A stretch of 46,408 nt of DNA, taken from a virus. The notes below the pieces were generated by a model that saw only the letters and a list, made by a program, of their open reading frames with translations, searched no databases and was not told where the DNA came from. The stretch spans positions 1 to 46,408 of IMG/VR virus record IMGVR_UViG_3300010392_000294. One strand, written 5' to 3'. Shown one piece after another: positions 1-46,408 of this stretch; position 1 is the stretch's first letter, and every line of letters starts with the position of its first letter. Made by a program: the position numbers and the translations under genes.

Positions 1-127
1 TCATGACTGTCTCCTTAATACCCGCGATGGGACTCGAACCCACACTTGACGGATTTTAAATCCATTGCCTCTGCCGATTGGGCTACGCGGGCACCTCATT
101 CAGATGTCTTTCTTCTCGTTGCGAGCA
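1..127. repeat. Terminal direct repeat, left copy
   Basis: These 127 bases are identical to 46282-46408. The right copy runs straight out of the polymerase start codon and the left copy runs straight into the 3' end of the gene at 100-348, so joining the ends gives one uninterrupted operon. A 127-base overlap is the size left by assemblers that use a k-mer of 127 when a contig closes on itself. I read it as a closure overlap, not a biological long terminal repeat. Confidence 0.9.
19..92 (-). tRNA. tRNA with anticodon UAA (tRNA-Leu-like, short variable loop)
   Basis: Read on the minus strand this folds as a full cloverleaf of 74 nt. It has a 7-bp acceptor stem with a G-U first pair, a D arm with only three good pairs, a 5-bp anticodon stem around a TTTAAAA loop (anticodon UAA), a 5-nt variable region, and a T arm with a TTCGAGT loop. 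The discriminator is A and CCA is not encoded. The acceptor start and the D-loop core AATCGG resemble bacterial tRNA-Leu(UAA), but leucine tRNAs normally carry a long variable arm that is absent here. The 3' end lies two bases before the ribosome site of the polymerase gene, so both are probably cut from one transcript. Decoding of UUA is inferred; charging with leucine is not proven. Confidence 0.88.
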
Positions 128-348
128 ATTGACGCATTAGCCCAAAACATCGATTGCTCAAGGTTGGTCATAGCCAAACTTAACTCACGAGATGGGGGAC
201 AATGTTCGTTGAGAAACAGTGCTAAATTGTTAGCTTGTTCCCTGATTTTCATATATCGCTCAGCTTGATCCCCTACAGGAGGGTGATGAGTGAAGTTCCG
301 TTCACGATTTTCTTTTTGCGTATCAGTTTCGGGGTGTATGAGACACAT
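100..348 (-). CDS. Acb2/Tad1-like hairpin-domain protein (candidate anti-CBASS/anti-Thoeris sponge)
   Basis: This 82-residue protein starts at the ATG at 348, seven bases after an AAAGGAG ribosome site; an in-frame ATG upstream overlaps the previous gene and lacks such a site. It has two predicted helices: one from GDQAERYMKIREQANNLA to about LNEHCPP, the second SRELSLAMTNLEQSMFWANA. The signature HPP-x-GDQ, CPPSRE-x-SLA and a terminal WANASIARNE matches, from memory, the small phage family now grouped as the Acb2/Tad1 hairpin domain. Characterised members bind cyclic di- and tri-nucleotides or gcADPR and so block CBASS or Thoeris signalling. Anti-defence function is inferred from family resemblance. 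It is the last leftward gene before the tRNA and polymerase, in line with early expression. Confidence 0.7.
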   Translation of the reverse strand: MCLIHPETDTQKENRERNFTHHPPVGDQAERYMKIREQANNLALFLNEHCPPSRELSLAMTNLEQSMFWANASIARNEKKDI

Positions 349-359
349 GGGTAACTCCT

Positions 360-950
360 TTAGATCATGTTCCACTGACGCATGAGACCAACCCGCAACA
401 CACGAGCCGTGATCTGTGCATCCTCAACCGCTGTATGGGGGACAGTAAGAGGTCGCTCAGGAAAGGCCCTGTTCCAACACTCTTGGAGGTTGGGGATCTT
501 TTCGTCATTTTCCTCGGCAAACAAGATTCCCGGGTCAAGAACTCGATGGCGAGCCCTCAACCTACTAGTCCAGTTTGGCATACACTCAAGGAACGACATG
601 TCAAACCGAGGATTTTTGCCTGCAACATTGAAAGTGATCTTCTCGCCTTGACCAACATCTCGTAGACCTTGTGAGTCAAGAAACTGCCACACAAGATTAG
701 TGATGTTTTGCTCAGGTTGAGCCAAGTCACCGGCATCTTGAATTTTCTTAAACAACTCAGCGTTAATAACTGCTGCCTCGAGTTGGCTAGGGAAAATTTC
801 AGGGGGTTTGATGTAAGTGTGAAATGTAGGGAGTTCTGAGACATCTTCACCCCACCACTTTACATCGTCAATAACAATGCCTAGCTCAAGAACTATAGCA
901 CTGTGCGGGTTGAGGCCTGTGGTCTCGACATCAATGACGGCGTATCTCAT
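360..950 (-). CDS. DnaQ-like 3'-5' exonuclease (DEDD family)
   Basis: The protein has 196 residues starting at the ATG at 950, which overlaps the preceding stop by ATGA and sits behind an AGAAGGA ribosome site; a longer in-frame start would run back into the kinase gene. All three exonuclease motifs are visible: Exo I DVETTGL near residue 7, Exo II NVAGKNPRFDMSFL in the middle, and Exo III HTAVEDA near the C terminus with the His-x4-Asp spacing of the DEDDh subgroup. Such enzymes trim 3' ends of DNA or RNA. The phage polymerase has its own exonuclease domain, so this enzyme probably serves repair, RNA processing or nucleotide recycling. Confidence 0.85.
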   Translation of the reverse strand: MRYAVIDVETTGLNPHSAIVLELGIVIDDVKWWGEDVSELPTFHTYIKPPEIFPSQLEAAVINAELFKKIQDAGDLAQPEQNITNLVWQFLDSQGLRDVGQGEKITFNVAGKNPRFDMSFLECMPNWTSRLRARHRVLDPGILFAEENDEKIPNLQECWNRAFPERPLTVPHTAVEDAQITARVLRVGLMRQWNMI

Positions 951-1372
951 TTTGTGTATCCTTCTGGGAGTTCTTGCCAAGCTTCGAGCATACTACGCAT
1001 ATGCTCAAACGGGACACCGTGAATGGTCTTTGCATGACAAAGACTCAGGTCCTTAGCCCAAGGAGTGTCAGGCTCGAGGATCTCAAATTCGGCCCCAAAG
1101 ACACGAGCCATCTCCTTGTACGGATCAATATATCTGATCCTCGTAAAGGTATTGGCTACGATTGCATTGTAGCCGTTGTACAAAGCCCTTGCAACCTGAC
1201 CTTGACACCAAACGATTGCCTGTTGATTAAGGGCCTTGGTCCATCGGTAGTACTGATCTCCAAAGAACATGTCGTTGTCATAGTGGGCGGTGTGCTGGTT
1301 AGCAGCAACAAGCTTCTCTGCAAGGGTAGACTTACCCGAACCCGGCAACCCTCTTATGACGATGAGTTTCAT
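947..1372 (-). CDS. P-loop kinase, polynucleotide-kinase/zeta-toxin-like
   Basis: This 141-residue protein has a perfect Walker A motif, GLPGSGKST, at residues 8-16 right after the first beta strand, and a DND motif about 25 residues later where the kinase superfamily of T4 polynucleotide kinase, zeta toxins and N4BP2-like proteins places its catalytic Asp. There is no phosphatase domain, so it is a stand-alone kinase. Starts and stops overlap by ATGA with both neighbours, showing translational coupling. Substrate is unknown: 5'-OH nucleic-acid ends are the obvious candidate given the HAD phosphatase and ligase in the same leftward unit, but a small-molecule or nucleotide kinase is possible. 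Confidence 0.75.
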   Translation of the reverse strand: MKLIVIRGLPGSGKSTLAEKLVAANQHTAHYDNDMFFGDQYYRWTKALNQQAIVWCQGQVARALYNGYNAIVANTFTRIRYIDPYKEMARVFGAEFEILEPDTPWAKDLSLCHAKTIHGVPFEHMRSMLEAWQELPEGYTK

Positions 1373-1581
1373 GTGTCTAACATCTCCTGTGCCTCAACCA
1401 TACGCTTGTAGCGGTCGGGCGTCCATGTTGTGTAAATCTCGAACAGATCGCAGGTGTAGCCTGCTTTAGCATGGTCTTTACATACACGCTCGGCTTCTTC
1501 TCTTGATCTGCATGTACGCATACGTTGAGCAGGTTGACCACCGCGTATGAACACTACGCATTTGCGTTTAGTGGCGGCCAT
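1369..1581 (-). CDS. Small basic hypothetical protein
   Basis: 70 residues, starting at the ATG at 1581 inside the last codons of the upstream gene and ending with an ATGA overlap into the kinase gene. It is rich in Arg and Lys with three cysteines (KCVV, RTCRS, RVCKDH) and a further YTCD; these are not spaced as a clear zinc site. I do not recognise a family. Its place in a tightly coupled string supports it being a real gene. Confidence 0.65.
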   Translation of the reverse strand: MAATKRKCVVFIRGGQPAQRMRTCRSREEAERVCKDHAKAGYTCDLFEIYTTWTPDRYKRMVEAQEMLDT

Positions 1582-2332
1582 AATACTTTGCAACCTCCTC
1601 AATAGTGTTTTCACCCCTCACTGGATTCATCACAGAGAGAGTCATGCCTAGTCTCGGAGCAACACCTATTGCCCATTGGGTCTCGTTGATACCCTCATCC
1701 CGGTTCAAATGGCCGGAGATTTGAAGTACCAGTTCAGCCTCGTTGCCTCGACCCACAACCTGTTTTGCAAAACCCTCTGTGTAGGATTGACCTTGGGGGG
1801 CGAGATGGTTCCAGAGCCAACGAGCGATACAAGTTTGTCGAGGAGCAGGATGTTCCTCATCGTAGCCCATAAACTCTGGCAACACACCAGTTGCAATTCG
1901 ATCGTGATTGAGAACCTGACGTAGCTTGCTGTAGTTGTCAAGCCCGGGAGCACCATCAGGAATCAACCAAACATCGGGGCCAAAGAGAATTATCCAAGGA
2001 TAGAGGGCTCTCATGATGTCGTCATCAGTTCGAGTGTGCCAGTTTACATACTTCCCACCCTCGGTTTTTACAGAAATATCCTCTACACCAAACTCCATAA
2101 TAAGTAGATCCCTCAACATGAAAAGAATATCCGGCATTTTCTCAACCACGATATCAAATTGGCTATGAGAATTTGTGGGTGCGATCAAATCTGCAGGGTG
2201 TCCAATTGTCACACGATCAATGTTGTTTTGGTACTCATGCAACTGACTGCCAAAAACTTCAAGGAGTTCTCTTTCAGTTGCTTTGGGGTTTTGCTTACGA
2301 ATCTGGTTGCAGTTAAAGTAGTGGTGGATCAT
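1568..2332 (-). CDS. Hypothetical protein downstream of the SF2 helicase
   Basis: The protein has 254 residues and I do not recognise it. The start at 2332 overlaps the helicase stop by ATGA. The sequence is acidic in the middle, without signal peptide, membrane segment or nucleotide-binding loop. Visible features are a conserved-looking TDDDIMRALYPWIILFGPDVWLIPDG stretch (here split as TDDDIMRALYPW and DVWLIPDG) and a C-terminal VMNPVRGENTIEE. Coupling to the helicase suggests a shared process, possibly as a partner or a DNA-binding factor, but the sequence shows nothing specific. Confidence 0.7.
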   Translation of the reverse strand: MIHHYFNCNQIRKQNPKATERELLEVFGSQLHEYQNNIDRVTIGHPADLIAPTNSHSQFDIVVEKMPDILFMLRDLLIMEFGVEDISVKTEGGKYVNWHTRTDDDIMRALYPWIILFGPDVWLIPDGAPGLDNYSKLRQVLNHDRIATGVLPEFMGYDEEHPAPRQTCIARWLWNHLAPQGQSYTEGFAKQVVGRGNEAELVLQISGHLNRDEGINETQWAIGVAPRLGMTLSVMNPVRGENTIEEVAKYYGRH

Positions 2333-4143
2333 TGCGTCATGGTCTCCATGAGTTCAAGTGCATTAAGCACTTCGTTCTTTGCGAGTTTGCTCAGTGACTT
2401 CTTCTTACGAAGGTTTGCGAGAACCAACCTGTCTGTCGGAAGGTTAATGTAATCAATCACGCGAGGTGAGGCATTCTCGTCCATGCCAATACGGTGGAAT
2501 CGTTCCTCAGCCTGTTGACGCTTACCCCCATTAAAAGTGTTCGAGTAGAAAATCATGGTGTCTGCTGCAGTGAGTGTGATACCCTCACCAGCGGCGTCAG
2601 GGTTGCCTACAAAGGCAATAGGTTGAGGGTACTTTTCTGTATCTTGGAACAATTGCTGAGCATTGTCCACAGTCCCCTCGAGACCCCTAACAGCATCTTT
2701 ATGGTACGAGGTATCACCCTTCCCAGAAGACTCTGTTAAAGGATAGAAACTTCGAGAACGTCCATCAACTTTAAGAACATTCCAATCATTAGCCAAGCAG
2801 ATCTCAACAATTTTATCAATAGTCCCTTGAAAGCCACCCCAAATAATGACTCGGTTACGCTCGTTATCGCGGAGTTCTTGAAGATCACCGATAAGCATAT
2901 CGTCTTTTGGAGTTTGTATCTTATCTGAACCTGTCCGCTTCTTACGGGCAAAACCCTCAGAGTCTTCCACGAACTCGTGTGTATATTGGAAACCATCAGA
3001 GAGCTGACGAACCGCACTGAGGGCTTGTGCCGCAGGCATGGTCTCCGCCAACACACGAGCAGCAGAGAGTAAGGTGGGGTCAAGTTTTGCTGCTCGCTCA
3101 ATATAGATTTTGTCCGGGAGATTCTGCTGGACATCTTTTTTGAGTCGAATGATTCTGATTGGCTCGAGTCGTTTGCCAAAGGCCTTCACCTCGTCAGGAA
3201 TCCAACCAAGGGTTTTCATGTAGGTACCGTGATTGCCCTGAGCTTGAGTTGTACTGGCGAGACGTTTGCGGAGATTAACTGGATTTTTCTCTCGAATAAA
3301 TCCGGGGCAAAGCATCTCAATTTGGGCCCACCAGTCCGTAGGATCCTTAGGGTCTGGTGTACCAGTCATAGGGAGAACGAATTCATTACCCGCCCAAAAA
3401 TCGTTCATGAGGCGACATAGCTCATAAACTAATTGAGTGCGTTGTGCCGCGGGGTTTTTGAAGTTGGCGGACTCGTCGATGCAGAGAACAAAGGGAGGGT
3501 GGTCAGCCTCCAACATGGCTTTGCGAATAGCTTGGGGGCTGTTCATAATGAGTCGTGGTTTGACGCCGAAGGGCCACTTGGGGATCTCGGTACGCCAAGC
3601 ATCCATAGGATTCTTCGGGCTAATAACCCAGAAAAGATCCTCATCTTGGGTGCTAACCGTCGAACCCTCTGTGTGTTGCAGCATCGTCTTTGCCATGTAC
3701 ATCACACTCAAACCCATGAGAGTTTTACCAAGGCCCATATCATAACCGAGAAGAATCTTGCGACGTTGTAAAACTAAAGGCAAGTCTTCTTTTTGAAAGT
3801 CATAGTATTCGACGGGCATTTGAGCAACGAGATCTTTGTACTCTTCTGAGACAGGATCAGTGTACCTGTCGAGCCAGTCTTTTGAGGTGCCGGGCATCTC
3901 ACCGTTAGTGAGATAACCGAGAGCGTTTCGATTACGGAGGCTGTGCTTGGGGTGTGTGGCTGTCCAAGCCTTGGAGTCGGGGTGCCACTTAGCTCCCTCA
4001 AGCCCATTGATCTCATCCTTAATGTAAAGCCACGCCGCTCGGGGCATCCCGCCCCAATTAAAGAGCATCCTATCTCCACGATCTTCGTAGTAGAGAGGAT
4101 ACTTCATTTTCTCAGGCCAGTGGTACGCTTTAGTTGTCGGCAT
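2329..4143 (-). CDS. SNF2/DEAD-like superfamily 2 helicase
   Basis: The protein has 604 residues. I place the start at the ATG at 4143, behind GGAGGT; a longer start at 4182 lacks a ribosome site and overlaps the previous gene further. Motifs in order: I GYDMGLGKT (about residues 133-141), II DESANFKN (about 223), III PMTGTPDP (about 258), then in the C-terminal lobe V AGEGITL and VI QAEERFHRIGM. The DMGLGKT and HRIGM forms are typical of SNF2-type translocases of phages and mobile elements. The first 115 residues form an accessory domain. It probably remodels or unwinds DNA during replication or recombination. Confidence 0.9.
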   Translation of the reverse strand: MPTTKAYHWPEKMKYPLYYEDRGDRMLFNWGGMPRAAWLYIKDEINGLEGAKWHPDSKAWTATHPKHSLRNRNALGYLTNGEMPGTSKDWLDRYTDPVSEEYKDLVAQMPVEYYDFQKEDLPLVLQRRKILLGYDMGLGKTLMGLSVMYMAKTMLQHTEGSTVSTQDEDLFWVISPKNPMDAWRTEIPKWPFGVKPRLIMNSPQAIRKAMLEADHPPFVLCIDESANFKNPAAQRTQLVYELCRLMNDFWAGNEFVLPMTGTPDPKDPTDWWAQIEMLCPGFIREKNPVNLRKRLASTTQAQGNHGTYMKTLGWIPDEVKAFGKRLEPIRIIRLKKDVQQNLPDKIYIERAAKLDPTLLSAARVLAETMPAAQALSAVRQLSDGFQYTHEFVEDSEGFARKKRTGSDKIQTPKDDMLIGDLQELRDNERNRVIIWGGFQGTIDKIVEICLANDWNVLKVDGRSRSFYPLTESSGKGDTSYHKDAVRGLEGTVDNAQQLFQDTEKYPQPIAFVGNPDAAGEGITLTAADTMIFYSNTFNGGKRQQAEERFHRIGMDENASPRVIDYINLPTDRLVLANLRKKKSLSKLAKNEVLNALELMETMTQ

Positions 4144-4357
4144 TACCAACCTCCACAATATCGAGGGTGGCACCATCTTCATTAAGACTCACTGAGGATA
4201 TTCGTAGATGTTTACCCCAAAGTGAACTAACAAAGGTTTGTGGCTCCTTTGAGCTCAATTTTATCTGTAAAATTACAGGGGACTCAGATTCCTTTGGCTG
4301 CTCTACTACAATCACTGAGTCAACGCTGAGCTTAGGATTTGCTTGATGTTGAATCAT
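4130..4357 (-). CDS. Small hypothetical protein
   Basis: 75 residues, starting at the ATG at 4357 after GAGGAGAAC and overlapping the helicase start by 14 bases. The composition alternates polar and hydrophobic residues (VILQIKLSS, LRISSVSLNED, TLDIVEV), suggesting a small all-beta fold. No family recognised. Its clear ribosome site and coupling to the helicase support expression. Confidence 0.65.
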   Translation of the reverse strand: MIQHQANPKLSVDSVIVVEQPKESESPVILQIKLSSKEPQTFVSSLWGKHLRISSVSLNEDGATLDIVEVGNADN

Positions 4358-4959: not shown

Positions 4960-5817
4960 TCAGCGACCGATGGGTTCGGCTACTCCATCGGTGGTGCCAT
5001 CCTGCTGACCATCGACACTCTCGCCACTGGCTTCCGGCGGGTTGAGGAAGTCCTGAATGATTGCGGGGGTCGCAGCCGCTCGACCATCAACCATCCAGCC
5101 CTCCTCCTGATTCTCGTGCATTTGGCGGACAGGGACTTCCCACCAAGTGAAGCTCTTGCCCTCTTGCATGTCCGAGCGAATATTGAACGCCGTGCCGGGC
5201 TTAGCTCCACCTCGGGACTCGGGGCCACCGACGGTGTTGCTAGAGTTACGTCGGGCATAAAAGTACTGCCCGATAAACCCGCCGGCAATACGAGCACGAA
5301 CCTGAGCAATAGCCCCTTCATCGAGTCCACGAGTAGAATCGTCGACCATCTCATCGACCATGCACATATGCTCAGGGATGAAGAAGAGACACTCGATCCC
5401 GGTGTTGACAGCGACAGGCTTAGGCCCCTGCCCCTGCTTCACCTCCTGAGTGTTGAGGATTTTGGCAAAGTTGGGGTGGTTGGGGTTGTAGGATTCGAGT
5501 AGCGGCTTGCTGTCCACCATGAGTACAGCCTTAGGTCGCCATGCCAGATAGACAAGATCAAGTGAGCACTGGAGCTTGGACCCATACCTCTGAAACTGTC
5601 CCAGAGGAATGGAACGAGTTTTGTCCTTGTCCGAGAGGAAGAATCGGCCCGGCTTGATGCCGGTCTCCTGACACTCACGGGTTTGCCCCTGTCCAAGGTT
5701 GATGAAGTTACGCATCGCCTGAGGCGTGGTAAGTGCATCAAACACCTCATCCGAGGTGTTGGCAAGAACGCCCTCATTGCCGGGCACACTCAGGGCACTA
5801 CTCTGTTCGTCGTTCAT
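4960..5817 (-). CDS. Hypothetical early protein, single-gene end of a transcription unit
   Basis: The protein has 285 residues from the ATG at 5817 behind GGAG, overlapping the previous gene by 20 bases and followed directly by a terminator. There is no signal peptide or P-loop. The middle contains beta-rich segments (KAVLMVDSKPLLESY, GIECLFFIPEHMCMVDEM) and the C terminus is an acidic, disordered tail (DGQQDGTTDGVAEP). An acidic tail plus placement among replication genes would suit a single-stranded-DNA-binding protein, but no motif supports that. Unknown. Confidence 0.8.
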   Translation of the reverse strand: MNDEQSSALSVPGNEGVLANTSDEVFDALTTPQAMRNFINLGQGQTRECQETGIKPGRFFLSDKDKTRSIPLGQFQRYGSKLQCSLDLVYLAWRPKAVLMVDSKPLLESYNPNHPNFAKILNTQEVKQGQGPKPVAVNTGIECLFFIPEHMCMVDEMVDDSTRGLDEGAIAQVRARIAGGFIGQYFYARRNSSNTVGGPESRGGAKPGTAFNIRSDMQEGKSFTWWEVPVRQMHENQEEGWMVDGRAAATPAIIQDFLNPPEASGESVDGQQDGTTDGVAEPIGR

Positions 5818-6812: not shown

Positions 6813-8000
6813 TTAGGCGGACGCTTCTTCCTCAACCTGATCGGGCGTATCCACACCGACCTCAATCCCACCAAACCCGGTGGGCTTGCTCTTGCCCGCA
6901 GGCATAAGGATGTTCACGCCTCGCTGAGCCGCGTCTTCCTGCTCCTTCTGGGAGTCAGCGAGGGCCTTCTTACGGTTCTTCTCCGCAACCTTCGCCGTGT
7001 GCTCAGCCTTCTTCCGCTCAACAGTCTCGCTGTCGATCTGGAGGAAACGCTGGAAGCCATAGTAGGTACCAACAAGGAACGCATTGAGGGAAGCTTCATT
7101 ACCCTCAGTGTTCACCTCTTCGAGCACCTTGTTAATGAACACGTCGCCACCGTGATCCTCAAAGTGCTCCTTGATCCAACCATCCATCATAGACAAGGCC
7201 TCGGCCTTGCTCACCAGCTTGGGAACGACGCCGGGGAACTCATCCCCACGACTGCGACGTTCCGAAGACTCGGCATCCTTGATCTTCTTGATCTCCTGCC
7301 CGATCTGAAGAGCGAACTCTTCGGAGTCGAGGGTCTTAGCTCGATCGTGCCAATGCACCTGCTCTTCAGCAGGAAGCTTGGCGAGATTGAACGCGTTGGA
7401 GGCAGACACACGGTTCTCATCGACGAACGTGGACGACTCGCCGGTAAGGTTTGTGAGCTTGAGGATGTTGGAGACGTAAGTCTGAGACTTGTTGATCTCG
7501 TTGGCAAGGTCGGCCTGCGTCAGCTCGATATCGTCAGCCTTGGCTGCGGCGATGATAGCGAGAAGATGCTCGCGAATCTGGACGGGTCGAGTGTCGATCG
7601 TCTGGAGGTTCGCCGTAAGCTGGAGGCGGTAAACATCCGTTTCGCAAGTCACCTCGATGAGGTTGACGGGCACGAGGTATTCGCTCGGATCAAGCGGTTC
7701 CTCGCCCGCTGAAAGACGTTCGGCGTTGAGTTCTTCCCAAATCTCCATAGCAGCCGACCAACGGTGGAGACCGTCAACGACGATAAAGGGATGCTCAGCG
7801 TTGGGGAGCGTATTGCGTCGTACCGTGATGGCTTGCATAATGCCATCTCGACGGACGGAGGCAACGAGCCCCGCCCATTTCTCATCCTTCTTGTTGACGT
7901 TCTTGCGGAGACCCGCGGCGTCAGGGGTGATCTCGGTGATGGGAACCTTACGAAGGTCGCCGTTAGCGAGAGCGGTGGAGGGATCAAACTGAGTATTCAT
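6813..8000 (-). CDS. ParB/Spo0J-family DNA-binding protein
   Basis: The protein has 395 residues from the ATG at 8000 with GGAG five bases upstream. The N-terminal ParB/sulfiredoxin-like domain shows VPITEITPD, then a Gly-x-His-Arg nucleotide-binding box in VVDGLHRWSAA (about residues 74-84). A helix-turn-helix follows at about 155-182 (LTQADLANEINKSQTYVSNI). The C-terminal third is charged and probably coiled coil. ParB-type CTPases load onto centromere-like sites; in phages without ParA, relatives act as regulators or nucleases. No ParA is encoded here. It ends at a strong terminator, suggesting high, separately controlled expression. The phased repeats at 8887-9022, 0.9 kb upstream in the same direction, are possible binding sites. 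Confidence 0.85.
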   Translation of the reverse strand: MNTQFDPSTALANGDLRKVPITEITPDAAGLRKNVNKKDEKWAGLVASVRRDGIMQAITVRRNTLPNAEHPFIVVDGLHRWSAAMEIWEELNAERLSAGEEPLDPSEYLVPVNLIEVTCETDVYRLQLTANLQTIDTRPVQIREHLLAIIAAAKADDIELTQADLANEINKSQTYVSNILKLTNLTGESSTFVDENRVSASNAFNLAKLPAEEQVHWHDRAKTLDSEEFALQIGQEIKKIKDAESSERRSRGDEFPGVVPKLVSKAEALSMMDGWIKEHFEDHGGDVFINKVLEEVNTEGNEASLNAFLVGTYYGFQRFLQIDSETVERKKAEHTAKVAEKNRKKALADSQKEQEDAAQRGVNILMPAGKSKPTGFGGIEVGVDTPDQVEEEASA

Positions 8001-8003: not shown

Positions 8004-8444
8004 TTACTCCGAGATCTTAAGCCGAGCAGTCTCAGCCCTACGCTGGGCTTCGAGGTACTCAAGCACGTTAAGGTTGCGTTCGGCGTCCTGTCCGAGATTA
8101 AAGCCACACCCTTCTTCAAGGTGAGCAATCGTTCCCGCCAAGACGGTTTCTGAGACTGTGCATCCAAAGTCGATGCCGTAGTGAACTCCCGAGGGCCAGT
8201 CAACTCCCTGGGGAACGTGTAGGATGAACGGAGAGATAACCTGCCCCGTCTGTCGCTCAAGAAGGAGAAACTGACGGGGCGGTAGGTTCTCGTGTGAGGT
8301 GTCGATGTTGAGGTCTGTTCGCTGTTCAGGGTTGAACGGAATCTCAATGATTCGTGCGAGCGTGGTGATGAGCGTAAAATCGTAGACCGTTGAGTCTACG
8401 AAAGCACGCTCCATGTCTGCACTCAAAACTGTGTCACAGAGCAT
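8004..8444 (-). CDS. Hypothetical protein upstream of the ParB-like gene
   Basis: 146 residues from the ATG at 8444 behind AAAGGA, overlapping the previous gene by 11 bases and ending three bases before the ParB-like start. The sequence is mixed alpha/beta (QFLLLERQTGQVISPFILHV) with a central GIDFGCTVSETVLAGTI stretch and a helical, charged C terminus. No family recognised. Probably expressed with the ParB-like protein. Confidence 0.7.
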   Translation of the reverse strand: MLCDTVLSADMERAFVDSTVYDFTLITTLARIIEIPFNPEQRTDLNIDTSHENLPPRQFLLLERQTGQVISPFILHVPQGVDWPSGVHYGIDFGCTVSETVLAGTIAHLEEGCGFNLGQDAERNLNVLEYLEAQRRAETARLKISE

Positions 8445-8766
8445 GGATTTCCTTTCGTTTAGCTTCTCTCAATTTGTCTCGAGCTGCCTCGAGAAGGATG
8501 GGTTTCCAATGGTCGATGAATGCCTTGAGTTGACCGTAATCACCGTCGTCAACCCAGACGAGGATCTGCTTGAGTCGTTTCTGACCGTCTTCGGTAGTTT
8601 CGTCAAACAGGGCCGGATACGAGACATCGAGTGACTGGAGTGTCTTCATCGCTTTCTCAACGATGTTCCTCGATTGCTGGTATCGAGCACGCCATGCAAT
8701 GTACAAACCAGACCACTCAGGGCGGTCTGCGAGCAATGTTCGTTGTTCGTTGTTCTCTGTACTCAC
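8434..8766 (-). CDS. Hypothetical helical protein, first gene of the ParB operon
   Basis: 110 residues with a GTG start at 8766 behind CGGAG. The sequence is strongly helical and charged (RNIVEKAMKTLQSL, KRLKQILVWVDD, EAARDKLREAKRKE), suggesting a coiled coil. It is the first gene after the promoter at 8798-8806 and the non-coding repeat block. Unknown function; a partner or regulator of the ParB-like protein is possible. Confidence 0.65.
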   Translation of the reverse strand: MSTENNEQRTLLADRPEWSGLYIAWRARYQQSRNIVEKAMKTLQSLDVSYPALFDETTEDGQKRLKQILVWVDDGDYGQLKAFIDHWKPILLEAARDKLREAKRKEIHAL

Positions 8767-8780
8767 TGACTCAATCTCCG

Positions 8781-8806
8781 TACTGTCATGTAGGTACAGT
8801 ATAGCA
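8781..8806 (-). promoter_or_regulatory. Extended -10 promoter with overlapping inverted repeat
   Basis: Minus strand TGCTATACT (8798-8806) is an extended -10 element; the -35 match is poor. The inverted repeat TACTGT (8781-8786) and ACAGTA (8796-8801) covers the start site and part of the -10, so it could be an operator or a hairpin at the transcript's 5' end. It would drive the 8434-8766, 8004-8444 and ParB-like genes. Confidence 0.55.
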
Positions 8807-8886
8807 AGTCAAATGCTCTCATGTTGTATAAAATTGTTCTCATAACAGATTTATTTGTTGCTCGCATCTCAAACACGTCAGTAATG

Positions 8887-9022
8887 CGAGTATGCACCGA
8901 GTGTTTACTGAGTATACACTGAGTACAAGAGTACACGCTGAGTGTGCAGAGGATACACCTGGGATCCTTTGAAACTGCTGAGTTTGAGCATTGAGTGTGC
9001 AGAGTGTTCATGAGTATGTAGA
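8887..9022. repeat. Array of 11-bp phased GAGT-type direct repeats
   Basis: The unit YGAGTRTRCAC starts with GAGT at 8888, 8899, 8910 and 8921, spaced exactly 11 bp, then at 8929 and 8940 (again 11 apart), with looser copies at 8980, 8993, 9002 and 9012. The 11-bp step is close to one DNA helical turn, so sites face one side of the helix. Within the array 8901-8919 is a near-perfect 19-bp dyad (arms GTGTTTACT and AGTATACAC around one G). Candidate binding array for a phage protein. Confidence 0.7.
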
Positions 9023-9099
9023 CTTTAGGGTAGGTGCATCTACAGGACTAGCAAAAAAGACATTGTTGAGAATAATAATAATAGAGTAGATGTTTTTAG

Positions 9100-9134
9100 G
9101 TCTACCGTTGGTGGTTAGTAGAATCCCGGTAGAC
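9100..9134. repeat. 8-bp perfect inverted repeat after the 9135-9356 gene
   Basis: GTCTACCG (9100-9107) and CGGTAGAC (9127-9134) are perfect inverted repeats 19 bases apart, placed immediately after the stop at 9135. There is no T run, so it is not a standard terminator; a transcript-end hairpin or a protein site are both possible. Confidence 0.5.
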
Positions 9135-9356
9135 TCATGAATCCTCAGCATACTCAATAGCTCCAAAGATTCCTCGCACCTGTGGCAAATATGAGTAGTC
9201 ATAGAAGACCATCCTATTGGTTGAGGTTACAACGAATGGACGTTTACCCTTTGTCGCATGGCGAGGTGGCTTGGTCTTCGCTCGCGGCAACAAACGCATA
9301 GCGTCAGCCTCAGCCTTGGCTCGTTCATCGTGGTTGTCCCATTTACGCTCAGGCAT
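9135..9356 (-). CDS. Small basic hypothetical protein
   Basis: 73 residues from the ATG at 9356, behind GGAGAGTG and overlapping the previous stop by eight bases; longer in-frame starts have no ribosome site. The N-terminal half is strongly basic (RLLPRAKTKPPRHATKGKR), the C-terminal half aromatic (MVFYDYSYLPQVRGIFGAIEY). No family recognised. Confidence 0.6.
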   Translation of the reverse strand: MPERKWDNHDERAKAEADAMRLLPRAKTKPPRHATKGKRPFVVTSTNRMVFYDYSYLPQVRGIFGAIEYAEDS

Positions 9357-9564
9357 TGTCACTCTCCACGTTGACCATCGTAGCGTTGTAGAGTCCATTT
9401 GCAATAGATCCCTTACGATGCCACTCAGCAGCACTCAAAGGATCTTGCAAACGTATACGCTTACATGAGATAATGTACTGTGCAATTGCAGTCTGTACAA
9501 CGTCGAGTGATTCATCGTCAAGCTTGAGTATGATCGTGTGAACCTTGTTCTCGTGTGTGGGCAT
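9349..9564 (-). CDS. Small hypothetical early protein
   Basis: 71 residues from the ATG at 9564 behind AAAAGGAG. Contains a hydrophobic beta strand (VHTIILKLDDES) and an amphipathic helix (DVVQTAIAQYIISCKRIR). It is the first gene after the promoter at 9607-9635 and the palindrome at 9581-9596. Unknown function; typical of small early phage genes. Confidence 0.65.
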   Translation of the reverse strand: MPTHENKVHTIILKLDDESLDVVQTAIAQYIISCKRIRLQDPLSAAEWHRKGSIANGLYNATMVNVESDNA

Positions 9565-9580
9565 GAAATGCTCCTTTTCT

Positions 9581-9596
9581 CAAGGCTCGAGCCTTG
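9581..9596 (-). promoter_or_regulatory. 16-bp perfect palindrome at the 5' end of a transcript
   Basis: CAAGGCTCGAGCCTTG is a perfect palindrome. The promoter at 9607-9635 would start transcription near 9600, so the palindrome forms a hairpin within the first bases of the RNA and precedes the ribosome site. It could protect the 5' end or be an operator. Confidence 0.55.
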
Positions 9597-9606
9597 GCTA
9601 TCGTGT

Positions 9607-20799: not shown

Positions 20800-23201
20800 T
20801 GTCAGCACCCCTTCGAGGTGAAGTTGCGTTTCATAGGGATCTTTTTCGGTACTATCCCGACGTATATAACACCGGGGGAGGGCTGCTTCCGGCTCTTGTA
20901 GATGCAGGATCTGGTCGTAAGATGATGCGATGCGAGATTCCCTCTCCCTGTGCTGTCAATGATGCGAGCGGTGTTGCTTACCGCTACATCAATTTAAGGC
21001 ACGGGGATGTGAAGAGCAACTTGACAAGTGGTGTTAAGGCTCACACAAAGGGTCGCTGGAAACTCAGGTTTAAAATTTCTGATGCTGGCACAGGAACCAC
21101 TGGAGGATCTAACGGAGATCATATACAGTTCTTTCTTGTGCAAGATGACAGTGCTCAAACCAAATTGGATCTTAGGCTGGCGGGTGTTTCTGGTGGGGAT
21201 ACGACACTTGAACTCAACTATCGTAACTCTGGAGGTTTTCAGGGAAACACGAACCTTGTAGTTTCTGGTGTGGACCTTGAGGACGGAGGATTGCACACCC
21301 TTGAAGTGGTCTGGAATACTACTGGAGCTACAGCCGGGGATAAATTATCTGTAAAGGTTGATGGTGTTGAGGTTGCGGGGTCCGTGGATGTTGGTGATAT
21401 TTCAGCACAAACATTTTACACCCTTCTGTTACGCCCTCGTGTAATCGACAACGGTATGGGGAGTTACACAATGGATTTTGATGTACTCTCCCATCAACTT
21501 GAGGGCTATTACACAGGATCTATAACTTTTACTGAGGATGATAACAAACCCGCGGGCTTGTTCAACCTTGGCGAACTGTTTGATCTCTCCACCGTTGCTT
21601 CTCAAGCCATTAGAGTAAGGGATCTCCCCCAACGCACGGGTATGAGCTCCGTATACGCTCAAATCAGATCGGTCATCAATCAAGATTTTCCGGTAGACAA
21701 TGTCACAGGTGTTGCAGAAACTGCATTCATCGAGTTAACTAAAGAAAGAGCTTACATGGCTGCTTTCTTTTTAACGGTTGCTGCGGGAGATACGGTCAAG
21801 TGTAAAGTAAAAATTCAAGACGATCCGGAGTCGCCTACGAGCGAGTGGGAGTCTGCTGAATATGAGGTTGCTATACCTCAGTATATCAACCAAGATATAC
21901 TCCCCCGAAACCTTACAATGCTTGCCACTCAATGCACTAAACCCTTTGGACGGGCTCAAGGTGGTTGGACCGATTGGTTTGAGGGACTCTCTGCCGAGGG
22001 TGGGGCTGATTTTGTACACCTCAACCTCGACGATTTTGTTTATGTTGATGATCTTGAGCAAGATGGTAGTGCAGACATTGATGGTGGGGGTACTAACTCT
22101 GCTGTGGAAAACAAGCAAGAGTATCTCCCTCCCGAATGGACCGAGGCTGTTGGTGATAATACCACGGATGCTCGTTGGCACGGTATGATTTGCTATTCTC
22201 AACTTGAGGATGTAGCTTTAGACAAGCTTATGCAAAGGGTGCCGAGTATTTTATCTATAGCTTATGACCATCTGGCTGGAGATAACAATTATGATGCGAG
22301 TTGGGCTACGAATACGGGTCCTTTAATCTCACAGTCTAACCTGTATAGTGCTGTGAGTCGACTAGAGTTGCACCAAAGAGGGGTGGCACTTTCTAGTCTT
22401 TTCAGAGAATCTATGCCCAATGCACCTCTTATAGGAGATAATGACGAGGGTGGCAACCTTATGCCACCGGTGTATAGGGCTGTGAGATTTGGGCCTATTC
22501 TGTTTGTTATCACCGATCCTATCAGGTATCAGTCTAGCTCCCAATTTTTAGGCCCAACTCAACTTGCATGGATCAAAAATGTTTTTTCGAGCACTGATGC
22601 ACAGCATGTAATTTGGGCTCCCACATACCCGACAGGTAGTGCATTTTATAAGGCGGGTCAAGATTGGCAGGGGGACTCGGATTGGCGTGGTGAGCTCACG
22701 GAAATTCTCGATGAACTGCAAAACAACAGTACCGTTGAGAGCTTTCAAACTTGGTGTGGGGACATGCATCTCTGTGGTTATGATCCTGATGCACACCCAG
22801 ATCACTCTAAGTCCATTGGTGAGTTTGTGATTGGTGTAGGCTCGAGTACTATGGTGGCTGCTGGCGGGCTTGATACAGATTGGAACACCTTAGCTAAGAT
22901 TGAATCTCGCTTGGGTGTTGGTGGTTGGGTGTATCCTGCAGACGGTGGAAGTCAAGAGGTTGGAGATGGTTCGCAAGTTAGAGCCGTCTCTGTAATAACC
23001 TTCACCCCTAGCGGTGGTATGGTCTACAAATTGGGTAGAGCAGATCAAAACACCGGACCTTACACCGCAGCTAATTTTGAAAATTATGTCATTGAGGAAG
23101 AAACCTTTAGCCTGTACAATGTTAAACAGGTGGGTATGGGTGGTGGTCTCTCAGAGGGTTCTAAGTATTTTTTAGCGGAGGGTGATTTTGGCCACGCCTA
23201 A
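20799..23201 (+). CDS. Virion protein with LamG-like and PhoD-like phosphatase domains
   Basis: 800 residues. Residues about 45-240 look like a concanavalin/LamG jelly roll (HTKGRWKLRFKISD, VDLEDGGLHTLEVVW, DKLSVKVDGVEV). The second half carries marks of PhoD-type metallophosphatases: AYDHLAGDNN near 488-497, the SQFLGPTQLAWIKNVF segment, and a GDMH metal site at 654-657. PhoD enzymes cut phosphodiester or phosphomonoester bonds, including wall teichoic acids. In the tail cluster it is probably a receptor-binding or surface-degrading component. Catalytic competence is not certain because the N-terminal metal ligands are not clear to me. Confidence 0.7.
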   Translation: MSAPLRGEVAFHRDLFRYYPDVYNTGGGLLPALVDAGSGRKMMRCEIPSPCAVNDASGVAYRYINLRHGDVKSNLTSGVKAHTKGRWKLRFKISDAGTGTTGGSNGDHIQFFLVQDDSAQTKLDLRLAGVSGGDTTLELNYRNSGGFQGNTNLVVSGVDLEDGGLHTLEVVWNTTGATAGDKLSVKVDGVEVAGSVDVGDISAQTFYTLLLRPRVIDNGMGSYTMDFDVLSHQLEGYYTGSITFTEDDNKPAGLFNLGELFDLSTVASQAIRVRDLPQRTGMSSVYAQIRSVINQDFPVDNVTGVAETAFIELTKERAYMAAFFLTVAAGDTVKCKVKIQDDPESPTSEWESAEYEVAIPQYINQDILPRNLTMLATQCTKPFGRAQGGWTDWFEGLSAEGGADFVHLNLDDFVYVDDLEQDGSADIDGGGTNSAVENKQEYLPPEWTEAVGDNTTDARWHGMICYSQLEDVALDKLMQRVPSILSIAYDHLAGDNNYDASWATNTGPLISQSNLYSAVSRLELHQRGVALSSLFRESMPNAPLIGDNDEGGNLMPPVYRAVRFGPILFVITDPIRYQSSSQFLGPTQLAWIKNVFSSTDAQHVIWAPTYPTGSAFYKAGQDWQGDSDWRGELTEILDELQNNSTVESFQTWCGDMHLCGYDPDAHPDHSKSIGEFVIGVGSSTMVAAGGLDTDWNTLAKIESRLGVGGWVYPADGGSQEVGDGSQVRAVSVITFTPSGGMVYKLGRADQNTGPYTAANFENYVIEEETFSLYNVKQVGMGGGLSEGSKYFLAEGDFGHA

Positions 23202-36588: not shown

Positions 36589-37056
36589 TCATGATTGTAC
36601 CCTTTCGATCAAAGTGCTGATGTCTCGAACAAGCCAGAGAGGTAAGTTTTCTGCCTCTGCAATAAACCTTCTCTCAATAGCTTCTGTGGTCATGTTTGTG
36701 ATGCGTGGGACATCTTCTGGGTCGAAGATTGAGCCTAAGATTCTCTGCCCTGTAACATCTGCGGGGTTGACATCTACACTCAGGCTAGGTGTGACATCAA
36801 ACCCTTTCGTAGGGGTTCGGGGGTGAACAAAGGCGTCTGGAGGGCAAGTATGTGTTGAGTCATCAATCAATTTAATACGACAGAGATTTTGCTCAATCAT
36901 ATCAACGTAAGCGACCCCTTTGCGATTGGCTTCAGGTGCAAACGTGTACCAATAACCGGCCCGAACCTCAGATAAGTTTACGGCCCTCTTTGCGGACTGC
37001 GGTGTCGACCCTGAGTTGCTTGGGGTTTGATCCTTCAATGGTGAGGTTGCCGACAT
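36589..37056 (-). CDS. Hypothetical last gene of the leftward unit
   Basis: 155 residues from the ATG at 37056 behind AGGAG. It overlaps the primase-helicase C terminus by 89 bases in another frame. The first 25 residues are polar and disordered; then a small beta-rich part (GYWYTFAPEANRKGVAYVDM) and a helical C terminus (EAIERRFIAEAENLPLWL). No family recognised. Confidence 0.65.
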   Translation of the reverse strand: MSATSPLKDQTPSNSGSTPQSAKRAVNLSEVRAGYWYTFAPEANRKGVAYVDMIEQNLCRIKLIDDSTHTCPPDAFVHPRTPTKGFDVTPSLSVDVNPADVTGQRILGSIFDPEDVPRITNMTTEAIERRFIAEAENLPLWLVRDISTLIERVQS

Positions 37057-39610
37057 GGAGTTCTCCTGCGTGTGTGCCTCTCGGATATTTTCCGATAGGC
37101 ATGTCTTTCATGATCTTATCGCGAGTCCAACGTGGTTGCTCGTCTGGGGGAAGAGACTGAATAAACCTTGACACAAATAGGTCAAAGTGTGTTACAGTTC
37201 CGGGGGTATATTTACAATGATCCTCAATAAATTCCTTGACTGAGGATCGGTGTAAATCTTCTAACTCTTGTTTGATATCTGAATCCAACACGGGAATACG
37301 AAGCCGAGAGTTGCTAGGCGGTATGTCCAATCGCAAGAGGGTGTACAAGAAATAAGGTGCCTCAGATTTAAGCCGTCCCATAAGTTCGGGTTTAGGAATC
37401 TCCACACCTTTGAACTCAGGCACGTACCCGACAGTAATACGAGTGTCTCCGGGGAACACCGGGCAATAATTTTTATCGTTTGAGCACTGAACCCAATGGG
37501 TGGTGTTCGGAGTGAGAAACCCGTCTTTGTGTTTAGCCTGTATAAAAATTCTCGGCGATGTGACCCAATCCTTGACTCGATCATAAGCAAGTTTCGTCGA
37601 GACATCGACCTCCTCAATGACAGCCAAAACAGAGCCATAGAGTTCACCGTTGAATCCGCTGGTGTTTGTGAGTGCTTGGTCGGCTTTGGCGTAACCCACT
37701 TCATCTTTGAGAAGAAGTTGGATTGCTTCATGAAACGTGCTCTTACCGGTGTTTTGTTCTTCGGACCAAAAGAATAGATAGGGCAAAGGCTCGAAGGGGT
37801 GTCGGAAGAGAGAAGCCACCCATAATCTAAGGTAGTCCGAACCAGATTCGATATGGTGTACTCTACACCACTCACTATTTTCAACATTGAGAGAATCTCC
37901 TAGATGCTCAAGGATGAGATCCCAGGTGGGGTGGGGGCCATGTTGAGGTTCGTAAGCAAGTTGAGGAGCACCTCTATTCCATTTACGATCCCCCGGGTAC
38001 TCAGGTGCAAAAGGAATAACAACCTCCTGCCAATCCTCAAGAACGGCCATACCTAACATGCCTTCACGCTCGGATGAACTGTAATCGAGTGCAGTTAAGG
38101 CTGACTTAATGTCATCTTTACCTTTCTCAACCCAGCGTCCGCGTGAAAGAACAAACCATGAGGGTTTACCTCCTGATTGACTAACATGACGTACGACCTC
38201 ATCAGGTGCTTCAATGATCTTTGTTTCTACTGCAGAGTTAACAATACGCTCCCACCTCTTGTTGTTCTTTTGTTTGCCCTCAGTGTACCAATCAGTAAGT
38301 GGTTTATCCCCTTCTTGGTAAGGGACAGTAACAACAATCTCTGACTCAGCCTTGCCCGGAGCTAAGATACACGATCGGGTGTTAAAAGACTCAGGGCAAG
38401 TGAAATAAGCTCCTAGAAGCCCTAGGACTTTTTTAGCTCGGGCAACGGTTTCAAACCGGAACTCACCAGATTTTGTTTTAACTCCACCCACCATACGGGA
38501 CGCGGAAGCAAGATTTGGCAGTTTGTTAAATGAGCAGTAAGTCCAACCTGTTGGAGCCTTTGACCAATATTCGTGCTCTTCGACTCCAAGCCCATATCGG
38601 TACACTGTCCAAGCACCTCCCCGTACTGGAAAGCAAAAGCAGTTATGATCGTATGGTGCATCTCTTCCGGTAGCCGCCGTTTTGAACACACCACGAAGTG
38701 AAAGTTCCTCGTGGATTTTTGCGAGTGTAGAGGTATGACAAACCAACATACCCCTCTCTGAGTCCCACCACGCCGTTTGATCGTTGTTGCTAAACCAGAC
38801 AAGTAACTGCTGATGCTCTGTATCAAGGTCCGTTCTCCTTGTTTTGCTGAGTAGATCATTGAAAGACGCTTCATTGTCCGTCAAACGCTTGGGTACTCTA
38901 CGTCTAGCTCGCTGGACCTGCAAATAGTCTTGCCAGTCGGGAGGCACTTGAGATAAATCTTCTGTTGCTTCCTTGATAACCTCAAAGGATTTTTTTGATG
39001 GAGATGCTTCTCTATGCCAGATCCAAAGCACACCCCCAGAGGTATCTACCTTCTCATCAAAATCAAAGTTCAGTAAACCTGACAGATGAGATAAAATAGC
39101 TTTAGCTAGTGCAGCATGCTCAGCATGGTTTCTAGTTTCTTCTGGGGTTTGAAGTTTAACGTAGAGATGAAACCCTTTGCCGCTCTTAGATCGTCTTAGT
39201 GTGATCCAAGGAATCATTTTCACTCGATGCCTAAGATCATCCAACTCAACGTCGGTCAACCCCTTGGCGTGATTGGTGACTGAGTCAAAATCAAAACCTA
39301 CCCAGCGACTGAGTCGATTTTGCCAATCCCACCCTGTAAGACCGATGGCTTCAACATATTTGTCAAAGGACCAGTCCATCATTTTATCTCTGTAGTGGGG
39401 CTCTGCATCAATACCTGACCCTCCAAAAGGGATACGGAATGCAGACCAAACCTCATCACCATCTGTGTACTGTGGTGTGCGACGCTCCTTGGACTTCACC
39501 CTATCGGGCCCGGGTAAGACGTTTACCTGCACCTCCATAGAAGGATGATAAACATCTACTTTGCAAGATTGAGTTTCCAGAAACTCACTAATGGCCTGTG
39601 TTTGATACAT
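36968..39610 (-). CDS. Primase-helicase (AEP-type primase and SF3 helicase)
   Basis: 880 residues. I use the ATG at 39610; the longer frame would need a TTG within the miniprotein gene. The primase part shows VGFDFD (catalytic Asp107 and Asp109) and RSKSGKGFHLYV (Ser/His motif, about 140-151). The helicase part has a P-loop EEQNTGKST near 613-621, Walker B VLAVIEEVD and a motif C-like VQCSNDKNY. This is the primase plus SF3 helicase arrangement seen in phage and plasmid replication proteins. It would open the origin and make primers for the phage polymerase. Confidence 0.85.
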   Translation of the reverse strand: MYQTQAISEFLETQSCKVDVYHPSMEVQVNVLPGPDRVKSKERRTPQYTDGDEVWSAFRIPFGGSGIDAEPHYRDKMMDWSFDKYVEAIGLTGWDWQNRLSRWVGFDFDSVTNHAKGLTDVELDDLRHRVKMIPWITLRRSKSGKGFHLYVKLQTPEETRNHAEHAALAKAILSHLSGLLNFDFDEKVDTSGGVLWIWHREASPSKKSFEVIKEATEDLSQVPPDWQDYLQVQRARRRVPKRLTDNEASFNDLLSKTRRTDLDTEHQQLLVWFSNNDQTAWWDSERGMLVCHTSTLAKIHEELSLRGVFKTAATGRDAPYDHNCFCFPVRGGAWTVYRYGLGVEEHEYWSKAPTGWTYCSFNKLPNLASASRMVGGVKTKSGEFRFETVARAKKVLGLLGAYFTCPESFNTRSCILAPGKAESEIVVTVPYQEGDKPLTDWYTEGKQKNNKRWERIVNSAVETKIIEAPDEVVRHVSQSGGKPSWFVLSRGRWVEKGKDDIKSALTALDYSSSEREGMLGMAVLEDWQEVVIPFAPEYPGDRKWNRGAPQLAYEPQHGPHPTWDLILEHLGDSLNVENSEWCRVHHIESGSDYLRLWVASLFRHPFEPLPYLFFWSEEQNTGKSTFHEAIQLLLKDEVGYAKADQALTNTSGFNGELYGSVLAVIEEVDVSTKLAYDRVKDWVTSPRIFIQAKHKDGFLTPNTTHWVQCSNDKNYCPVFPGDTRITVGYVPEFKGVEIPKPELMGRLKSEAPYFLYTLLRLDIPPSNSRLRIPVLDSDIKQELEDLHRSSVKEFIEDHCKYTPGTVTHFDLFVSRFIQSLPPDEQPRWTRDKIMKDMPIGKYPRGTHAGELHVGNLTIEGSNPKQLRVDTAVRKEGRKLI

Positions 39611-39612
39611 CT

Positions 39613-39783
39613 TTAAAGACCCCAATCTCGAGGGGACCAAAGATCATAACAAGTTTTGCAGAGTACATCGCCTTTGGGGTGGTTGTGACAAATTATCATA
39701 GCCTGAGAGGGTTTGCGTTTATTGCAGACATCACACCGAGAATGTGTGAACAACTTTTTGAACCATGTGAGAAAGAGATCCAT
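39613..39783 (-). CDS. 56-residue zinc-finger miniprotein
   Basis: The ATG at 39783 follows GGAAGG at four bases, two bases after the upstream stop. The product has RCDVCNKRKPSQAMIICHNH and then LCKTCYDLW: CxxC plus CxxC with a Cys-x-Asn-His between, a four-ligand zinc site. It ends three bases before the primase-helicase start. Probably a nucleic-acid- or protein-binding helper of replication. Confidence 0.8.
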   Translation of the reverse strand: MDLFLTWFKKLFTHSRCDVCNKRKPSQAMIICHNHPKGDVLCKTCYDLWSPRDWGL

Positions 39784-39784: not shown

Positions 39785-40711
39785 TTACCTTCCCATCAAT
39801 CTGTCGATGACGTCGGTGCCCTCAGACTGACCAGCTTCCCATTGCTTAAAGGCGTCACAACGGTCAGAAACTTCACACCTTTGATTGTAGGCATAGCACT
39901 TACGTTGAGTGGGAACTGCATTATCCATTTCACCCTCTTGCACCTTGTACCAATTGTAGACAAGATCACTCCAAAGTTTTTCTTGGAATTCAGCTGTGAC
40001 AATTGTTCGGATGGAGGTGAATGCATATTTGCCGCTACGAACAGTGACGTTCTCAATAGCTACTGGAACATCACGGAAGGGGGTCATACCTGAGTAAAGC
40101 CAACTGTAAATGGCAAGCTGACGAGCCCACTTATCATTTAACTCCTCAAGAGGGGCACCAGCTTTCTTGTGTGGGGGTAAAGTTTGAAAACCTCTCTTAC
40201 CATATACATAGCCTTGTGTAGGAGATGCACCTGACTTAGAGGCTGAACCTTGAACCTTCCAGTCAACAATAGTACCGTCGGATAATGCAGCATCTGGTTT
40301 ACCCAAAACGGGGACCATATCATCACCGCATACGAGATCGAGTTTCTGTGACATCTCAACAGAGGTGAGACCCTCATCGAGAAGACGCTTGAGCATTCCG
40401 GACCTTTTGTATTCCATAAAAAGAATACGGCCCATAGGAACAGCTGCATCATGATTAACCTCATCGACAGAAGACTTTAACAGTGCCTCAATTTGATGTT
40501 GGGGATCCCCACCTAAACCCAAATGCTCGGCAATCTCGGCTTTCACAAAAGAGTCAAAGGCCGAACCAATAGCTGCTGCTGTTCCTTGAACTGAGTTAGG
40601 CCAAGGGAGACCAGTCATACGCTTGAGATAAAACCTCATGTTACATGACATCATTTCCTCGAGGCTGCTGGGGCTGAGATAGTTGGGCTGAGCTAGTACA
40701 GGAAGTTTCAT
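39785..40711 (-). CDS. Cas4/RecB-like PD-(D/E)XK nuclease
   Basis: 308 residues, ATGA overlap with the methylase gene. Core motif GKPDAALSDGTIVDWKV gives Asp140, Asp150 and Lys152, followed by QLAIYSWL (the conserved Gln/Tyr helix). An N-terminal Cys23 (MMSCNMRFYL) plus three C-terminal Cys (KCYAYNQRCEVSDRC) match the four-Cys Fe-S pattern of Cas4 and AddB. A 5'-3' or 3'-5' exonuclease for recombination and end processing is likely. Confidence 0.85.
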   Translation of the reverse strand: MKLPVLAQPNYLSPSSLEEMMSCNMRFYLKRMTGLPWPNSVQGTAAAIGSAFDSFVKAEIAEHLGLGGDPQHQIEALLKSSVDEVNHDAAVPMGRILFMEYKRSGMLKRLLDEGLTSVEMSQKLDLVCGDDMVPVLGKPDAALSDGTIVDWKVQGSASKSGASPTQGYVYGKRGFQTLPPHKKAGAPLEELNDKWARQLAIYSWLYSGMTPFRDVPVAIENVTVRSGKYAFTSIRTIVTAEFQEKLWSDLVYNWYKVQEGEMDNAVPTQRKCYAYNQRCEVSDRCDAFKQWEAGQSEGTDVIDRLMGR

Positions 40712-41436: not shown

Positions 41437-41437
41437 C

Positions 41438-41818
41438 TCAGAATCCCTTCGGTTTGATGATCTTACTCCCACCGGTGGCATAAGCTTTCCAGTTGGGTGC
41501 TCCGTACAGGAGAGTAAATTGATCTACAGCCGTTAAGACGTAGATCAAGCAGCCTGCTCTATCCATATTCATAAACTTTTCCATTTGACGGGGGCTGAGT
41601 CCGCCATTCTTTTCTCTAGCACGGGCAGGTGTCTTCAACTCCACCCATCTCTGGGGGTGTGAGAGTCGGGAGATAAACATGTCAGGAAGCCCAGATTGAA
41701 ACTTGTTGCCGTGAATGTTTTGAACGAACCACCCTTTGTACTCAAGGTGCTCCTTGATCTTCTCATAGAGAGCGGTCTCAGGGTTTTTTGAACGACCTCT
41801 GGGCTCCCTAAAATGCAT
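41438..41818 (-). CDS. VRR-NUC nuclease
   Basis: 126 residues. Pattern: ETALYEKIKEHLEYKGW, then HGNKFQSGLPDMFI (catalytic Asp), WVELKT (Glu-x-Lys) and LSPRQ (Gln), the compact VRR-NUC fold found alone in phages. These enzymes cut branched or 5'-flap DNA. TGATG one-base overlap with the previous stop. Neighbours the Dam-like and Cas4-like genes, so part of DNA repair/recombination. Confidence 0.85.
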   Translation of the reverse strand: MHFREPRGRSKNPETALYEKIKEHLEYKGWFVQNIHGNKFQSGLPDMFISRLSHPQRWVELKTPARAREKNGGLSPRQMEKFMNMDRAGCLIYVLTAVDQFTLLYGAPNWKAYATGGSKIIKPKGF

Positions 41819-46285: not shown

Positions 46286-46408
46286 GACTGTCTCCTTAAT
46301 ACCCGCGATGGGACTCGAACCCACACTTGACGGATTTTAAATCCATTGCCTCTGCCGATTGGGCTACGCGGGCACCTCATTCAGATGTCTTTCTTCTCGT
46401 TGCGAGCA
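46282..46408. repeat. Terminal direct repeat, right copy
   Basis: Exact second copy of bases 1-127. It contains a duplicate of the tRNA (46300-46373) and the upstream part of the polymerase gene. It should be trimmed once, giving a 46,281-bp circle. Confidence 0.9.
46300..46373 (-). tRNA. Duplicate of the UAA tRNA in the closure overlap
   Basis: Identical to the tRNA at 19-92. It appears twice only because the sequence ends overlap by 127 bases; the molecule carries one copy. Confidence 0.85.

Follow-up and report, generated by a model that had tools for sequence, protein, structure and literature searches.

A helically phased array of GAGT units beside A/T-rich DNA in an uncultured phage genome: a candidate iteron-type site, possibly a replication origin

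The origins of phage-inducible islands are built from two sets of iterons that flank an A/T-rich stretch (PMC6092414). In satellite phage P4 the alpha protein, which combines primase, helicase and winged-helix domains, binds the repeats of its origin through the winged-helix domain (PMC4234260). At the origins of pRN1 and BIP-1 the replication protein joins a primase to an SF3 helicase, and a large stem-loop is found 3' of the replication gene (PMC4234260). Two further systems belong to partition and to transcriptional control. Going by the titles cited in PMC9426499, parC of plasmid R1 comprises 10 repeats flanking a promoter. The ParB-family protein KorB silences promoters from sites located 4 to more than 1,000 bp upstream (PMC11790492). 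The locus described here resembles iteron origins and that of P4 in layout, and R1 parC in repeat length and in having two clusters; it is a genuine cis element of a familiar type, from a phage that had not been described.

The whole stretch of DNA that was analysed, referred to below as the window, is 46,408 bases long, and its start is repeated exactly as its last 127 bases (1-127 and 46282-46408). It is catalogued as a virus and represents a phage genome of 46,281 bases in circularised form. Assembly with k=127 also produces a 127-base repeat at the join, and the length of the terminal repeat points to the overlap left when a circular molecule is assembled more than to a true end repeat of the phage; a tRNA-Leu (anticodon TAA) lies inside it. 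Replication and other early genes are read leftward. These include a family A polymerase (polymerase A, 44075-46324), a DUF5906-type primase-helicase assigned by PHROG to DNA primase (36968-39640), an SNF2-type helicase (2329-4182), a ligase and an exonuclease. Because the phage codes for polymerase A, the primase-helicase, the ligase and the exonuclease, it needs an origin of its own. Packaging and structural genes are read rightward from 10837. The divergent gap before the terminase operon carries a near-perfect sigma-70 promoter, TTGACT-17-TATAAT, at 10643 on the plus strand, and the midpoint of this gap is no more than 77 bp from the turn of the purine skew. The GenBank phage collection contained no match to the window by DNA and none to its ParB-like protein.

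The array is situated in a gap of 368 bp (8767-9134) between two genes of the minus strand. On one side, 8434-8766 encodes 110 amino acids and is the first gene of the leftward operon beyond the gap, the third being the gene of the ParB-like protein (6813-8000). On the other side is 9135-9356, for which the start MPERKW was chosen by comparison with gene 2266-2493 of a collinear relative, record IMGVR_UViG_3300038701_001348 (L003, L030-L032). An open reading frame of 82 amino acids crosses the array on the minus strand (8763-9011), with a codon score of -0.117; the mean out-of-frame score is -0.142, and genes have a mean of 0.141 and a minimum of 0.085. The score, like that of out-of-frame sequence, and a repeat period not divisible by three together rule out a coding array, and the preliminary description was right to place it in a non-coding block of 368 bp. 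No RNA family or tRNA was found in the gap.

The tetramer GAGT starts ten times within a span of 128 bp (8888-9015), at positions 8888, 8899, 8910, 8921, 8929, 8940, 8980, 8993, 9002 and 9012. The first six positions and their 11-bp steps (8888 to 8921, and 8929 to 8940) are exactly those given in the preliminary description. Over the whole array the steps from start to start are 11, 11, 11, 8, 11, 40, 13, 9 and 10 bp, four of the nine being exactly 11 bp. The left cluster (8887-8957, plus strand) holds six GAGT units at 8888-8940 followed by a degenerate unit, AGAGGATACA, at 8948, and the right cluster (8979-9022, plus strand) holds the remaining four; the consensus of the unit is about TGAGTRTRCA. 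The peak density of GAGT, 10 per 135 bp, may be compared with a maximum of 7 or fewer for every other 4-mer in this genome and with a GAGT maximum of 6 per 135 bp in 60 simulated genomes. The 150 bp at 8871 are the most self-repetitive of the genome, with 66 repeated 5-mer pairs as against 33 in the next best stretch, a difference of about twofold. Tandem Repeats Finder detects just the first 3.5 copies.

All ten copies share a helical phase: when periods from 9.5 to 11.5 bp are scanned, the Rayleigh R is 0.87 at 10.3 bp (P=0.00025), this probability being conditional on the ten copies as given and on a motif picked by an earlier reader. The right cluster has the same phase as the left, and a single phase at about 10.3 bp holds across the 40-bp break, including the pair of units that flank it. 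At exactly 11.0 bp, R over the ten copies is 0.13, because the 8-bp step and the 40-bp break depart from the 11-bp register and keep that of 10.3 bp. A shared phase of 10.3 bp is characteristic of sites that occupy the same face of the helix. The imperfect dyad of 19 bp reported at 8901-8919, GTGTTTACTGAGTATACAC, is indeed present with 8 of its 9 pairs matched and is, by a rough estimate, unremarkable.

The A/T-rich DNA that was said to adjoin the array is real, with a 60-bp G+C of 0.27 at 9039 and again at 8800. The first of these stretches, 9039-9098, is a candidate unwinding element, and the gap's A/T-rich stretch ranks third to fourth in the genome at 60 bp. The most A/T-rich stretch of the genome is 40849-40968 (60-bp G+C 0.217 at 40908), in or near the early gene 40708-41481. 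An inverted copy of the array unit is found at 9133-9158 on the minus strand, where it overlaps the 3' end of gene 9135-9356; that it doubles as the last codons of this gene may be a coincidence. With 8990-9015 it makes up the best 24-nt inverted repeat in the genome among arms 60-220 nt apart, with 20 matches of 24 and 18 in the next best, and this pair encloses the A/T-rich 9039-9098. Two more of the top twelve inverted-repeat pairs link the array to the same stretch, 9133-9158. An inner hairpin, GTCTACCG/CGGTAGAC (9100-9134), comes directly after the stop codon of gene 9135-9356, and GTAGA/TCTAC occurs five times in 9017-9134, some of the copies being paired in inverted orientation as small hairpins within the A/T-rich core.

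The fold predicted for single-stranded 8986-9163 is unusually good (DNA z -3.9; RNA z -4.8 and -5.0), and the stem is second of 386 in a genome scan, in a frame that was placed by hand; axis scans were unremarkable. This large imperfect stem recalls the stem-loops of pRN1 and BIP-1, but in the window it is far from the replication gene. The counterpart in the relative is only modest (z -1.4 and -3.3), and for this reason we do not claim that the stem is conserved.

Comparison with the relative sheds some light on which properties of the gap are maintained. Gene order in L003 is the same as in the window almost throughout, with identities of 58% for the polymerase, 54% for the terminase, 53% for the primase-helicase and 39% for the ParB-like protein; several small genes and the stretch equivalent to window 100-2332 are without a match there. 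The positional counterpart of gene 8434-8766 is L003 1565-1870, which is 24% identical. Between the same two genes the relative has a gap of 394 bp, compared with 368 bp in the window, and this gap has its own repeats, of the GGGTGCA and GTGTACTG types. It also ranks first in A/T content in its genome, with the lowest 60-bp G+C at 0.20 and the next at 0.28, and the minimum is on the same side of the repeats as 9039-9098 is in the window. In both genomes the array and the A/T-rich gap have stayed together with the ParB-like gene. Common 6- to 9-mers between the two gaps are no more numerous than in shuffles. In both genomes the densest 150 bp of GTRYRC/GTRYAC falls in the gap, for a motif that was chosen after the fact, and the shared degenerate purine-pyrimidine motif is borderline, since dinucleotide-shuffled gaps score as high in 4.5% of cases (P 0.045, full search). 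Place and layout are conserved between the window and L003, whereas letters and exact spacing are not, so that conservation in relatives, proposed earlier as a check and made here with one relative, holds for position and layout and fails in part, for sequence and spacing. At such a divergence of the proteins, survival of intergenic letters is not expected. The sole other copy of the window is a fragment that is 100% identical (L001/L002) and is uninformative.

A search of 2.9 million viral contigs for the exact pattern of four GAGTRY at 11-bp steps returned 38 matches, and the reversed motif, used as a control in the same contigs, returned 41. A special 11-bp GAGTRY family shared by phages is therefore rejected, and because the reversed pattern is about equally frequent, 11-bp arrays of arbitrary sequence are common in viral DNA. 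The genes that flank intergenic 11-bp arrays are mixed and include homing endonucleases, terminases and replication initiation proteins; among 48 viral records with such arrays ParB was present in 3 and DUF5906 in 4, nothing decisive. Long perfect 11-bp arrays (GAGTACTGTTT, GAGTACACTAT) were seen in unrelated phage contigs, for instance L045, L047 and L048. The similar frequency of the two motifs is what one would expect if the array had arisen by chance or by neutral tandem duplication and had no function. We nevertheless consider such an explanation improbable. A fresh slippage array would look unlike the present units, which have diverged outside the GAGT core and yet keep one phase over 128 bp and a 40-bp break; moreover, a distant relative retains, at the corresponding position, a gap that is A/T-rich and bears repeats.

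The interpretation of the array as a cis-acting, protein-binding site of iteron or cooperative-operator form, predicted from its letters, is well supported, because it is non-coding, helically phased, extreme in its genome and contained in a gap that remains repeat-bearing in a collinear relative. The array is almost certainly a docking site for protein, an element of an ordinary kind, and what is gained is a concrete cis site, with a layout conserved without its letters between two distant relatives. With somewhat less than an even chance of being right, we favour the view that the array is an iteron-type site and most likely the replication origin of the phage, an array controlling the early promoter being the main rival. 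Multiple direct repeats in helical phase, in non-coding DNA and next to an A/T-rich region, are what iteron origins contain. The array is far above chance, and an inverted unit lies across the A/T-rich stretch. That the collinear relative keeps a repeat-bearing gap with the most A/T-rich 60 bp of its genome is also consistent with an origin, and the window may be read, by analogy, as the published island layout of two iteron sets flanking an A/T-rich stretch (PMC6092414).

We infer from these features that protein binds here, which protein it is and that replication starts at the gap. An initiator would occupy the TGAGTRTRCA units in several adjacent copies along one helix face and would also bind the inverted unit beyond the A/T-rich DNA. 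The stretch 9039-9098 would then melt, a helicase and a primase would be loaded, and the phage's family A polymerase would take over. The best candidate for the initiator is the primase-helicase; otherwise it might be the ParB-like protein or an early protein of unknown function. An origin at this site would give a specific start point to an uncultured phage group that has its own polymerase and primase-helicase.

The window shares with theta replicons and phage-inducible islands direct repeats about one helical turn apart and adjoining A/T-rich DNA (PMC6092414), and adds to these an inverted unit past the A/T-rich DNA. It differs in that an initiator gene is not adjacent, in that the units are short (about 11 bp) and degenerate, and in that the origin is only predicted. 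By Pfam, PHROG or NCBIfam, no initiator was found among the genes neighbouring the array, and around the circle about 16 kb separate the array from the primase-helicase gene, which argues against an origin. Short repeats and a primase-helicase are likewise shared with satellite phage P4 (PMC4234260), but in the window gene and array are far apart, and a repeat-binding domain would be predicted by analogy only. Against the P4 primase family model the primase-helicase scores 15.1 bits, far below the cut-off of 108.7. The structures predicted for two proteins were of too low a quality to be of help, with pLDDT values of 42 and 36, the latter for the C-terminal domain of the primase-helicase. Further points against an origin are that neither the letters nor the spacing of the repeats are conserved, and that the adjacent promoter fits the regulatory rival as well.

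There was no enrichment of DnaA boxes, and no extreme of GC, keto or purine skew was located at the gap. The expectation that cumulative GC skew would mark the array was not borne out: skew extremes are at the transcription divide or elsewhere. The purine skew turns at this divide (10707 in the window and 27452 in the relative), and the GC-skew minima are at 7371 and 30581, respectively. As a proxy for an origin skew is weak, being confounded by gene direction.

The main rival places the array in the control of transcription. A regulator of the phage or of its host would bind cooperatively upstream of a promoter near 8800 and switch the leftward early operon. This operon (the genes starting at 8766, 8444 and, for the ParB-like protein, 8000, and onwards) is perhaps autoregulated through its ParB-like product. 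The operon has the gap as its 5' region, and the helical phase fits cooperative binding. The case for the promoter reported beside the array is weak, since 8600-9600 has 2 sigma-70-like matches where 1.7 are expected by chance. A candidate extended -10 of a leftward promoter, TGCTATACT (8798-8806, minus strand), lies between the array and gene 8434-8766. At the matching place the relative has a leftward sigma-70 promoter with 12 of 12 matches (L003 1947-1919), one of only two perfect ones in that genome. Roughly 90 bp separate the transcription start implied by the extended -10 from the array upstream of it, and at about 90-230 bp from this presumed start the array is too far for simple occlusion. 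Silencing by KorB from upstream sites provides a precedent for a ParB-family protein acting in this manner (PMC11790492), and the RK2 operators share with the window such a protein and a site upstream of a promoter. KorB, however, works from single sites of 16 bp and not from a phased array of ten units. An operator, moreover, needs neither an A/T-rich core nor an inverted copy on its far side. An operator array, which would mark the control point of the early operon, is in our view less likely than an origin.

The ParB-like protein raises the question of partition. As the preliminary description stated, its gene is 0.9 kb from the array; the protein of 395 amino acids has ParB_N and HTH_ParB matches, its nearest solved relatives are Noc and ParB, and it is also kept in L003. 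It may bind the array. If the array were a centromere-like site at which this protein is loaded, the ten 11-bp repeats in two clusters would have the form of R1 parC. As far as the titles cited in PMC9426499 go, the two share repeat length, a number of about ten copies and an arrangement in two clusters. There are also differences between them: the window has its promoter outside the array rather than between the clusters, and it has a ParB-like protein, neither ParR nor the actin-like ParM having been recognised in the early proteins that were scanned. The R1 clusters are about 40 bp apart, as in the window. R1 parC is, however, bound by the ribbon-helix-helix protein ParR and not by a ParB of the HTH type, and in other viral records 11-bp arrays show no association with ParB genes. 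The genome contains no match to the ParA family (PF13614) and no tyrosine integrase was found in it, so there is no sign of a maintained plasmid or prophage state. A canonical parS is also absent from the genome, with 0 matches to the 16-mer within 3 mismatches, a search that would miss divergent phage sites. The ParA-binding motif of ParB proteins has been defined as (L/F/I)G(K/R)G(L/F/I) (PMC12704722), and it is absent on reading the 395-residue sequence. A partition site is consequently unlikely, and of the three forms offered earlier for the array the iteron origin and the cooperative operator stand, while the partition site, with no ParA found and no canonical parS, is disfavoured. If the array is an origin, one may ask what role a ParA-less ParB-like protein plays beside it. 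Conceivably such a protein binds or organises the origin of a lytic-type phage on a phased iteron array next to its own operon and couples early transcription to the start of replication, although we give this idea only a slim chance.

Terminase genes start 1.8 kb from the array, and some small terminase subunits use repeat-rich sites, so that the array could in principle be a pac or cos site read by terminase in packaging. We regard this as very improbable, given that the array is outside the terminase operon and upstream of the early operon, and that nothing in the 127-base end repeat points to it.

In a distant phage, L025, the ParB-like gene, a homologue of gene 4960-5817, the SNF2-type helicase and polymerase A (40%) occur in the same order, and no gap with an equivalent array was found upstream of its early module. 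A Gly-rich repeat protein (GYGSGDGSG...) is encoded two genes downstream of the ParB-like gene in L003 (reverse complement 22157-22456), and a similar Gly-rich repeat coding stretch ends at position 136 of L025, upstream of the distant ParB-like gene. L003 also has two neighbouring genes whose starts carry the same leader of about 38 bp, CCTCTTGCATTTTGCTCCTTTCGAGCGTGGGTGGAAC (reverse complement 22115-22152 and 22693-22730).
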